A DNA stretch of 43,946 bases from Methanosarcinales archaeon (GTDB taxonomy: Archaea > Halobacteriota > Methanosarcinia > Methanosarcinales > Methanosarcinaceae). The notes under the pieces were generated by a model. The model saw only the letters and a list, made by a program, of their open reading frames with translations. It was not told where the DNA came from and did not search any database. Below are positions 5,320 through 37,546 of this stretch, piece after piece. Each line of letters opens with the position of its first letter. Within the stretch, counting starts at the first letter, position 1. The position numbers were made by a program, and so were the translations under genes. Where the stretch lies: contig JAIRKA010000047.1 in NCBI GenBank assembly GCA_031260345.1, positions 1-43,946 on the forward strand, in the 5' to 3' direction.

Positions 5320-5463
5320 GATGAAAAGCGGAGCGGCTCGCGCGTGACGGGCAGCTGCCAAGACGGACACGAACACGGTAAAGTAACGGCGGCAACGCAA
5401 ACAGTAAGGTAACAGCGGTCACGTTCGCGATAGCGTTCGGATGTGATAAAAAGGAGCAGATGC
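5320..5463 (+). repeat. Intergenic repeat family 1, copy A
   Basis: gatgaaaagcGGAGCGGCTCGCGCGtgacgg...CACGTTCGCGATAGCGTTCGGATGTGATAAAaaGGAGCAGATGC, shared with copies at 18517, 27474 and 30338. Confidence 0.85.
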
Positions 5464-5575
5464 AAGCGGCGGCATAAGCCTGCCGACAGCAGCAAACGAA
5501 AAACAGTTGCAGGAATGGAGCTCGCTCGAAACAGGTGAGCGCTCTTCCGCTTACGTCTGCCTCTTTTTTGAGCAT

Positions 5576-5712
5576 TCCGCTAATTTCCGTTTTTGCACTT
5601 CGCTTCGCTCTAATGTTTGACCGCTCCTGCGGACCGGCCAAAGCTCAAAAACGAAAATTAGCGGTCGTGCGTGAAGTTTCATACAAGTATAAAATGATTG
5701 AAACATCGTGTC
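5576..5712 (+). repeat. Stem-loop tail module of repeat family 1, copy A, with nested family-2 palindrome
   Basis: CCGCTAATTTCCGTTTTTG ... CAAAAACGAAAATTAGCGG (19-bp stem, one mismatch), then TCGTGCGTGAAGTTTC...GAAACATCG. The same layout occurs at 30570-30673. Confidence 0.8.
5616..5642. repeat. Family-2 palindrome (27 bp)
   Basis: TTTGACCGCTCCTGCGGACCGGCCAAA, imperfect palindrome with a conserved mismatch inside the CCG/CGG stem. Confidence 0.75.
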
Positions 5713-11866: not shown

Positions 11867-13045
11867 TTATTCTTTTTTGCCGCCGAAAATCTTTTTATGA
11901 AGGTCATCAAACGGTTTCTTATCAATCCCTTCTTTTTTGTATTTACGGGACATGATCATGTAATAGCCGGCAGCGGCCAAAACAATTGCGGCAATGATTG
12001 CGATTATAATTGTCACCGCCGTCCAAAACGGTACTTCTTCAACTGAAACCTCCACTTTCATTGTGTCCGATATTCGCTGACGTCCGTAATTGTCTATATA
12101 CAAAATTTCACTGTTGATGGCATAAGGTTTGTCATAAATGACGGAGTCGCCGTCAACGCTGATTCTAAAGACCGCCGTGACTTCATCTCCCGGATTCACT
12201 GTGCCCAAAAATGACTGGTCATCCGTTGTACTGAACGGCGTTGCCGTGCTCAAGCGGACATACGCGTCTCTTGCAGTCTCTTCGCCGCTGTTTCTGTACG
12301 TTACGAAAAGCATGCCGGCGTTTCTTGAAGACAAGTTTTGCTCAACGCTGACAATTTCAAATTGTGTCGCTTCTTTTATTCGAATCGTGACGGGAATTCT
12401 TTGAGACGTTTCTTCACTGTACCAAAAAGAAGCGTTCAAGTTGCGGATGCCCATCAAAACACCGCTGGCATTCACGGGATCCGCATCGTAAATAACATTT
12501 CTTAAATGCCTGTAAGTCACATTCAAAGTGAGTTCATATTCGCCGGCGGGAAGGTCTCTCTGGATGTCAACGGTATATCTGATCGGATTAGAAGTCGCGC
12601 CGGAGGACATACTTCCCGCGACCTGCGGTCCGGTTTGAACAGTGATTCCCGGAATATCAGATTCAAGCGTTGCGGTAACGCCGACCGCCGTTAAAATCGC
12701 TCTGATATTTTCAAGTTCCATCTGCTGAAGCGTTGCATTCAGCTGCTGCTCAACCGACCCGTTTGCTCCCCTGACAGGATTTTCCGCTCTAAAGCCCTCA
12801 ATGACGCCGTGGTTTGACAGCACGAGCGGAATCGTTGCGGTCTGCCCGCGGGAATATTCGCCGCCGCCCTGAACACTGACACGAATGTCAGGCCCGCCGT
12901 AAAACGAATAAAAATTGGTGCCCAAGTTTCCGAAAAACGTTTGATTTGAAGCAGCACCAAAAGCGACCGGCGCCATCGCGCCAAAGATAAGCATCGCCAA
13001 AAGTGCGGCAGTTATATATTTTTTAATTGTTGCCATAAAAATCAC
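11867..13045 (-). CDS. COG1361-type (S-layer-like) secreted/membrane-anchored protein
   Basis: Signal peptide, repeated beta-type domains (SVEQNLSSRNAGMLFVTYRNSGEETARDAYVRLS), C-terminal TM AVTIIIAIIAAIVLAAAGYYMIM. Probable start MATIKK at 13036. Confidence 0.8.
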   Translation of the reverse strand: MIFMATIKKYITAALLAMLIFGAMAPVAFGAASNQTFFGNLGTNFYSFYGGPDIRVSVQGGGEYSRGQTATIPLVLSNHGVIEGFRAENPVRGANGSVEQQLNATLQQMELENIRAILTAVGVTATLESDIPGITVQTGPQVAGSMSSGATSNPIRYTVDIQRDLPAGEYELTLNVTYRHLRNVIYDADPVNASGVLMGIRNLNASFWYSEETSQRIPVTIRIKEATQFEIVSVEQNLSSRNAGMLFVTYRNSGEETARDAYVRLSTATPFSTTDDQSFLGTVNPGDEVTAVFRISVDGDSVIYDKPYAINSEILYIDNYGRQRISDTMKVEVSVEEVPFWTAVTIIIAIIAAIVLAAAGYYMIMSRKYKKEGIDKKPFDDLHKKIFGGKKE

Positions 13046-16992: not shown

Positions 16993-17018
16993 TTGACCGA
17001 TCCGGCAGGAGCGGTCAA
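16993..17018. repeat. Family-2 palindrome (26 bp)
   Basis: TTGACCGATCCGGCAGGAGCGGTCAA; 10 nt after the previous copy. Confidence 0.7.
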
Positions 17019-17227
17019 TCATTAGAGTAAAGCACCAAGCGGTTTTTGTTTTTAATCGATCGTAATCGTTATAAAATAACAATAATTGACTCTATTGTAA
17101 ACTCAATCATTTCAGAAGGTGAACAATAGATTTTGGTTATATATAACTTCCGAAGAGCACGTTTTTTATTTCGGGAGATGATTGTTTAAAACAGTTCAAC
17201 ATTGCCAAACAGTTAAAAACAAAATGT

Positions 17228-18516: not shown

Positions 18517-18656
18517 AAATTAAAAGCGGAGCGGCTCGCGCGCGGCAACTGAGGCGGCAAGCGCAAACCTGAAGGCAGCAGCGGCAACACAAACCTGTTG
18601 GCAATCGCAGCCCTGTTCGCGTTAGCGAACGGATGTGATAAAGAAGAGCAGATGCA
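18517..18656 (+). repeat. Intergenic repeat family 1, copy B
   Basis: aaattaaaagcGGAGCGGCTCGCGCGcgg...TGTTCGCGTTAGCGAACGGATGTGATAAAgaaGAGCAGATGC. Confidence 0.85.
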
Positions 18657-18804
18657 CACAAGCATACGCAAACAGTTCTCCAAAGTTCGAATTTAACAAA
18701 TTTCACGAAAACTTGATGTTTGTTTTTCAATGCTGAAAAAATCAAAATGAAATGAAGTCAGAAATAAAAAGAAGAGGTGGCTGAAATACCGCCAATTAGC
18801 AAAA

Positions 18805-21227: not shown

Positions 21228-21252
21228 GGAGCGGCTCGCGCGCGAGGCGGCA
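21228..21252 (+). repeat. Intergenic repeat family 1, copy C (5' core only)
   Basis: GGAGCGGCTCGCGCGCGAGGCGGCA. Confidence 0.7.
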
Positions 21253-21330: not shown

Positions 21331-21635
21331 AAACCGCATTTTTCGCTTCCGTTCGCCGCTTCGCGCCGCCCGGAATCAAAAATTGCGGGTCGTTACGTGA
21401 ACTTTTCATATCTTGATTCAAAAACGAAACATCGTTTTTATTATAATTTTCTTTAAACTCGAACGCTGTTATTCATTTCTTATCTAAAACATTTTTAATT
21501 TTAGGGCTTATTGGGCGTTCGGGTTTCATTTTAGATTAAGAAAAGCCGATGTTTCGGTTTTATACAAGTAAATGAAAAACCAAAACAACCACCTCCAACG
21601 ATGAGTTTCATGAGGGGCGGCGCGAAGCGGCGAAC
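21331..21635 (+). repeat. Stem-loop tail module of repeat family 1 (copy C), enclosed by a perfect 21-nt inverted repeat
   Basis: GTTCGCCGCTTCGCGCCGCCC (21351-21371) / GGGCGGCGCGAAGCGGCGAAC (21615-21635). Nested stems CGAAACATCG/CGATGTTTCG, CGAACGC/GCGTTCG and CTAAAA/TTTTAG. Confidence 0.75.
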
Positions 21636-21857: not shown

Positions 21858-21882
21858 ACGGAGCGACTCGCGCGAGGCGGCA
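21858..21882 (+). repeat. Intergenic repeat family 1, copy D (5' core only)
   Basis: GGAGCGACTCGCGCGAGGCGGCAC. Confidence 0.65.
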
Positions 21883-27473: not shown

Positions 27474-27645
27474 AGTTGGAGCGGTCGCGCGGGCGGCAGC
27501 TGCGGTAAGCGGAATCGGCAAGGCAGTAGCGATGACTCGAACGGCAGGCAGCGCGGCAACACGAACAGTAAGGTAACAGTGGCCACGTTCGCGATGGCGT
27601 TCGGATGTGATAAAAAAGAGCAGATACGCTAGAAGCGTAAACAGA
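27474..27645 (+). repeat. Intergenic repeat family 1, copy E
   Basis: GTTGGAGCGGTCGCGCG...gcggcaacacgaacagtaaggtaacagtggcCACGTTCGCGATGGCGTTCGGATGTGATAAAaaaGAGCAGA; the last ~70 nt nearly match copy A. Confidence 0.85.
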
Positions 27646-29993: not shown

Positions 29994-30232
29994 AGGCGGA
30001 TAAGAAAGCGAGAATCAAAAACAAAGCACAAGGGAGAAAAATCAATGAAACGGTCAAAACCATTAACATCGTCAACTTGGTGATTATTGTCGCCGGTTTC
30101 TTTTTAATGATTCTGAATTACAATGAGTTGTTGACAAGAATCGGTCAGGGATTGATCATGGCAGGCGCGCTCCTCATTATGATGACGATTGTTTTCCAAA
30201 TCATGATGGCAAACAAAATGAGAAGAGGCTGA
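29990..30232 (+). CDS. Small two-TM membrane protein of unknown function
   Basis: 80 aa, basic N-terminus then two hydrophobic segments; ATGA overlap with the Sua5 stop suggests coupling. Confidence 0.65.
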   Translation: MKADKKARIKNKAQGRKINETVKTINIVNLVIIVAGFFLMILNYNELLTRIGQGLIMAGALLIMMTIVFQIMMANKMRRG

Positions 30233-30337
30233 TTTTTTTAAAAAAATATTTTTTAGATTATGATGAGAATTTTCAGTAAAACAAAATTTCTCATCCAATT
30301 CTTTTTTATTAAATTCATGAATGAATAAACGATGGAT

Positions 30338-30810
30338 AGGTTGAAAATTTAATGAAAAGCGGAGCGGCTCGCGCGTGACGGCGGCAGCGCGAACTGTAGG
30401 TAGCCGGTAGCCACGTTCGCGAAGCGAACGGATGTGATAAAAGAGAGCAGATGCACGCAGCAATGCAGACGCAGTAGCGCAGGCAGCAGCTCAATGCAAA
30501 ATACAGTTGCAAGAAAAAACTCATTTGGAGCAAGCTCAGCTTCCGTGTGCATCTATCTCTTCTTTGGCATTCCGCAAATTTTCATTTTTCCACTTCGCTT
30601 CGCTCAGCGAAAAAATGAAAATTAGCGGTCGTACGTGAGGTTTCGACTAATTTAGGGCTTTATTGAAACATCGTTTTTCATTTTTATTTTCACGAAAAAT
30701 TTGAACGCCCTTTTTTCACCTAAATCTAAAATATTTTATTTTTAGGGTTTTATCGGGCGTTCCGTTTAATCTAAATTTAATGAGGATGGATGTTTGGTTT
30801 TTCAATATCT
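30338..30810 (+). repeat. Intergenic repeat family 1, copy F (longest composite copy)
   Basis: GGAGCGGCTCGCGCGTGACGG...CACGTTCGCGAAGCGAACGGATGTGATAAAAGAGAGCAGATGC, then CCGCAAATTTTCATTTTT/AAAAATGAAAATTAGCGG stem and nested stems AAACATC/GATGTTT, GAACGCCC/GGGCGTTC, CTAAAA/TTTTAG. Confidence 0.85.
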
Positions 30811-31014
30811 ATTACTTAAATTGTGAATTTAGACGCAAATAGGAATGAGGATTATATATCAAAAAATCTTAAAGATTGCAAGAGGAAAAAACTCTATTTC
30901 AGGACTTGGTCCTAAAAATGAATGTAAAACAGTAAAAAAGCAGGCACTCCGTCTTTTTAATCAATTGTTATTTATTCAACACCCATCTATTTCAAAATCA
31001 TCTCAGGTCAAAAA

Positions 31015-37293: not shown

Positions 37294-37491
37294 ACTTTTT
37301 TAAAATAAAAACAGAATTCCTAAGTGTCCTTTAAGGTATTTAAAGATTATTTTTGATTTGTAATTTTTATTGAGAAAGCTCTGGGATTTTCGCATTTTTC
37401 ACATTTTTCGACTTTTATTTGCTTCATGCAAGATACATTAATTTAATAAGCAGGAGTATATTATGCTGAAATATTCAATAATTAAATATGA

Positions 37492-37517
37492 TTGACCGCT
37501 TCTGTCAAACCGGTCAA
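37492..37517. repeat. Family-2 palindrome (26 bp)
   Basis: TTGACCGCTTCTGTCAAACCGGTCAA, 30 nt upstream of the flavin reductase start. Confidence 0.65.
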
Positions 37518-37546
37518 ATAAAGAAAACATTTACAGGTGAACAAAT

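Follow-up and report, generated by a model that had tools for sequence, protein, structure and literature searches.

The analysed window, the whole stretch of 43,946 nucleotides, is one contig (C7) of the 1.59 Mb, 119-contig source genome, and the genes flanking the repeat copies within it are ordinary housekeeping genes (eIF5A, S3Ae, GPI, aRF1, Sua5, the CCA enzyme and AglB), with no hint of a helper among these neighbours. Four full copies of a dispersed intergenic repeat, which a preliminary description placed near positions 5320, 18517, 27474 and 30338, are real: CGGATGTGATAAA is present exactly in all four, at 5438, 18630, 27602 and 30429, and shuffles are expected to yield 1.4 matches at up to two mismatches. 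A model of the 3' core applied to the whole window without filtering recovered the four full copies alone, at 54-81 bits, and its next match in the window, which scores 13 bits, falls on the inverted tail belonging to copy 1.

The copies are built of modules, all of which lie on the plus strand unless stated otherwise. Copy 1 comprises module A with the 5' core GAGCGGCTCGCGCG (5331-5344), a degenerate array 1 (5345-5418), module C with the hairpin GTTCGCGATAGCGTTC and the core CGGATGTGATAAAAAGGAGCAGAT (5419-5477), a tail on the minus strand that resembles a degenerate inverted C core (5539-5573; 13 bits, E=0.16), and module E with hairpin 2, CCGCTAATTTCCG..CGAAAATTAGCGGTCG (5574-5686). Modules A and C are found in copy 2 at 18529-18542 and 18611-18669, and in copy 3, where A is the variant GGAGCGGTCGCGCG, at 27478-27491 and 27583-27640; a downstream E was seen in neither. 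Copy 4 has A (30362-30375), the best-scoring C (30411-30468; 81 bits), E with hairpin 2 (30567-30645) and a further module F, AAACATCG..GAACGCCC..GGGCGTTC..GATGTTT (30661-30800). The two copies described earlier as consisting of the 5' core only were also found, as module A without C: the one at 21229-21242 is followed by a remnant of E (near 21390) and by F (about 21420-21575), and the other, at 21861-21874, carries one mismatch. A 30-nt inverted repeat (GTTCGCCGCTTCGCGCCGCCCGG; 21351-21380 and 21606-21635, 87% complementary) encloses an F between two A copies, and a second dispersed hairpin repeat, similar to TTTGACCGCTCCTGCGGACCGGTCAAA, occurs in the window at 5602-5630, 17005-17033 and 37488-37518.

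Alignment of 43 copies from the source genome with 38 from Methanimicrococcus blatticola, together with distance counts, gives the module order as A, array 1, the hairpin with core C, array 2, the tail with E, and often F. Module A is GNGCGGCTCGCGCG with T-rich or A-rich DNA ahead of it, the hairpin GTTCGC-loop-GCGAAC continues into core C (GGATGTGATAAAAAAGAGCAGATGC), and E carries hairpin 2 (CCGCWAATTTCCG..CGAAAATTAGCGG); F is present in many copies of the source genome, where it is sometimes followed by another A. An A is located 58-130 nt upstream of C in 43 of 46 copies in the source genome, and an E downstream in 28 of these 46 and in 36 of 38 copies in M. blatticola. Measured from A through E, most elements span 240-380 nt in the source genome and 250-630 nt in M. 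blatticola. The fixed ends proposed originally therefore need revision, as both cores are real but the element runs on beyond the supposed 3' end into the tail, hairpin 2 and often F. Likewise, the 5' core is a far more abundant module of its own, with 155 occurrences in the source genome (reversed-pattern control, two). Both A and, less often, E are found without C, and at six loci the module after A is another hairpin (GGCGGCAGCCGC, AAAAGTCGCGTAAGCGACTTTT, CACCGCCC), which suggests shuffling of modules.

The variable middle also exists, but what had been taken for a degenerate GGCAGC/GGCAAC stretch is a tandem array, either decayed or expanded. Both arrays contain little T (11-16%). Those of M. 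blatticola are clean, locus-private minisatellites that reach about 14 units, with a period of 23-27 nt in array 1 and mostly 18 nt in array 2, the unit of which is copied from the edge of C; in the source genome the arrays are mostly decayed. Tandem repetition takes further forms in the genus. In the relative G011 the C cores are often paired in inverted orientation at short range; at five loci the distance is about 190-550 nt, and tandem arrays occupy both the interval and the outer flanks. On contig C27 of G013, a genome without a detected C, module A recurs in each of four units, about 120 nt long, that are arranged in tandem behind a gene. In M. blatticola (locus L077, near position 12145), array-like GGTAGCAGCAGCGGTGACGGC repeats lie within a coding ORF, where they read as a stretch rich in Gly, Ser and Asn. 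Four element-free intergenic gaps still carry species-specific tandem arrays, and the intergenic regions there thus seem generally prone to tandem growth.

Six Methanimicrococcus genomes, most of them incomplete, were compared, namely the source genome (G000), probably that of another Methanimicrococcus species than M. blatticola, then M. blatticola as its closest relative, G011, G012, G013 and G014; the lineage consists of host-associated (gut) methanogens known for low coding density. The genome-wide search advised in the preliminary description revealed many copies beyond the window: the 24-nt 3' core has 47 matches in the source genome at up to three mismatches and 45 copies in M. blatticola, with no match to the reversed pattern in either. 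A covariance model (R1) detected 48 copies in the source genome, 50 in M. blatticola, 35 in G011, 10 in G012 and 18 in G014, and none in G013, which is 66% complete. Among 107 genomes from 13 other genera, the covariance model gave a single marginal match (E=0.008). The exact 3' core was identified among 85,462 species genomes only in M. blatticola DSM 13328 and in one Thermoplasmatales MAG, where it was judged a chance match, being accompanied by neither the hairpin nor other modules. The Rfam search of the window returned only tRNA and no match to the element above the gathering score. Searches of phage and plasmid collections gave no matches to the element, and in our literature searches no description of the family was found, and it goes unmentioned in two genome papers on the lineage. 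By these searches the repeat family appears restricted to the genus Methanimicrococcus, with dozens of copies per genome between genes.

With respect to neighbouring genes, 35 copies are situated in convergent gaps and 4 in divergent gaps (P ~2e-7), the test relying on the fact that a circular chromosome has both gap types in equal number. Where the neighbouring genes are co-directional, both orientations are equally represented (20 versus 22). Such a pattern is that of DNA purged from promoters; an element bound to the transcript of the upstream gene would not show it.

Comparison of orthologous gaps points to mobility. For eight copies of the source genome both flanking anchors were present in the M. 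blatticola DNA examined; at six of these sites M. blatticola has no C core (gaps of 16-384 nt versus 378-782 nt), and two are common to both species with the same orientation. The reverse comparison, with seven testable M. blatticola sites, again found them mostly unshared. At copy 4, the stretch 30229-31009, consisting of the copy and about 250 nt of unassigned DNA, is missing from the orthologous gap of four relatives (G011, G012, G014 and M. blatticola), whose gaps of about 76-307 nt contain neither A nor C. Another two sites are each empty in two or more relatives. Empty outgroup gaps polarise the change, and these copies are therefore gains. Filled and empty pairs were found in the search for target-site duplications, with junctions blurred by intergenic divergence. 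Mobility is read from genome comparison, by presence and absence alone. Some of the empty sites could instead be explained by loss from a richer ancestor.

Sites that are shared show a second feature. The 7-8 nt adjoining the near-invariant hairpin differ from species to species, giving C dialects, and at site L047, where A and C are present in four species, the C motif of each copy is in the version of the species concerned. The copies of one lineage therefore either evolve together or have been re-seeded. At one other site A is common to four species and C is present in only two, hence modules are also added or lost piecemeal, and C may have been gained or lost beside an old A.

A candidate mover was sought in five families (Y1_Tnp, RVT_1, DDE_Tnp_1, IS110 and rve). 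Y1_Tnp (PF01797) was found in none of the six genus genomes, its control being positive in five genomes including M. acetivorans; RVT_1, DDE_Tnp_1 and IS110 were likewise absent from all six, with positive controls including Methanosarcina acetivorans; and rve domains were seen below the cut-off in two relatives only. The apparent absence or near absence of common transposase families in these six genomes is unusual beside Methanosarcina. Terminal inverted repeats were not detected in 45 elements (mean local end score 6.6 versus 5.9 for shuffled sequences), nor was a single conserved open frame or a protein encoded by the element.

Taken together, we consider it probable, at roughly 60%, that the repeat is a genus-restricted, non-coding, non-autonomous dispersed element of modular structure, with each lineage acquiring copies at intergenic sites that are new to it. 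Among the three roles suggested at the outset, the non-autonomous mobile unit fits best, as relatives have empty orthologous gaps and the element encodes no protein. It is plausible that a putative trans-acting enzyme copies or inserts the element, and that the near-invariant GC hairpin with the C core would be its recognition site; alternatively, a fork-stalling, recombination or conversion process might act at the hairpin and C. Replication slippage beside the hairpin would generate the private minisatellites, and copies would survive where they are harmless, chiefly behind the 3' ends of genes. A host function may exist alongside dispersal.

The strongest competing explanation, possible but unlikely, is that the repeat is a host-functional DNA site, involved in nucleoid organisation, replication or termination and bound by a genus-specific protein with which the C dialects would have co-evolved. 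The near invariance of the hairpin throughout the genus beside 7-8 nt that vary by species would suit such a site, as would the genome-wide spread, the preference for gene ends and the retention of one site in four species. However, the copies are mostly at non-orthologous sites, and their number varies from 10 to 50 among relatives, with none detected in the 66% complete G013. Somewhat more doubtful is spread without any dedicated transposase, by which the hairpin and C core would nucleate private minisatellites on both sides and be recopied and homogenised to the species dialect by the host replication, recombination or gene-conversion machinery, or by a novel class of mover.

The copies might also be relic MITEs of a transposase family that was lost from, or is not yet sampled in, the genus. 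Decayed partial copies, remnants with A or E only and the negative helper search agree with such relics; nevertheless, this origin is improbable, since the cores of M. blatticola are very uniform and the source genome has lineage-specific gains, which together make the spread look recent, and terminal inverted repeats are absent.

A structured RNA, whether part of a 3'UTR or processed to a small RNA as the preliminary description also proposed, has a still smaller chance of being correct. Its hairpins are stable and its position behind gene ends would be appropriate. The C hairpin is conserved: across 49 divergent copies, 99.7% of the cells are paired. Of its six pairs, however, four are invariant, and only a single double change occurs among these copies, with one more change visible on both sides of the hairpin at locus L027; conservation of the C hairpin is clear and covariation thin. 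The 3'UTR role in particular is disfavoured by the even orientation of copies in co-directional gaps, the real bias being against divergent gaps, and Rfam has no match. A long stem joining the C core to the tail, convincing in folds of single sequences, was rejected since pairing is no better within a copy than when the two arms are taken from different copies (permutation P=0.68); the tail of the element may be a decayed inverted C.

A repetitive protein gene on the opposite strand was rejected as an artefact of base composition and has next to no probability: although 43 of 86 copies lie within ORFs of at least 100 aa, nearly all antisense, T-poor sequence is stop-poor in antisense, the longest antisense frames are spread evenly over the three frames (28/24/32), all three are open over at least 60 codons in 45 copies, and periods of 23, 25 and 26 break the frame. 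Where gene calling yields long antisense ORFs in regions of this kind, they are probably spurious.

As a non-autonomous dispersed element that numbers about 50 copies per genome, occupies both shared and private sites and has species dialects, the family would be a natural system for studying how such DNA spreads in archaea, apparently without the usual transposases, and it offers a view of how minisatellites originate beside a hairpin. By the tests run, it is REP- and MITE-like in behaviour and a member of neither class. REP/BIME sequences are short, GC-rich intergenic palindromes present in many copies, with species-specific types, composite arrangements and avoidance of promoters; RAYT-associated REP elements have a conserved tetranucleotide (GTAG/GGAG) at the base of their hairpin. 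The element resembles the REP/BIME system with its RAYT transposases in being a short, GC-rich palindromic intergenic repeat with many copies, species-specific types, composite arrangements and promoter avoidance, but the Y1 tyrosine transposase is missing from all six genus genomes, and the element has a longer, modular unit that includes two tandem arrays. With MITEs and other non-autonomous IS derivatives (review PMC10969869) it shares a non-coding, dispersed unit of a few hundred nucleotides that is polymorphic for presence and absence among relatives. It differs from them in having no terminal inverted repeats and no parent transposase among the five families searched. The eukaryotic Helitron-derived INE-1/DINE-1 elements are non-autonomous, with an internal minisatellite of variable length, a hairpin near one end and no clear TIRs. 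The element is unlike them in that it is not known to have an HUH rolling-circle helper, and like them, by analogy and with no homology claimed, in being non-autonomous and in its variable internal minisatellite, its hairpin and its lack of TIRs. Finally, repeats of the MIRU/VNTR type are intergenic tandem arrays whose copy number differs between loci, as it does in the arrays of the element; in the latter, however, the arrays flank a conserved hairpin core and their unit is private to each locus.
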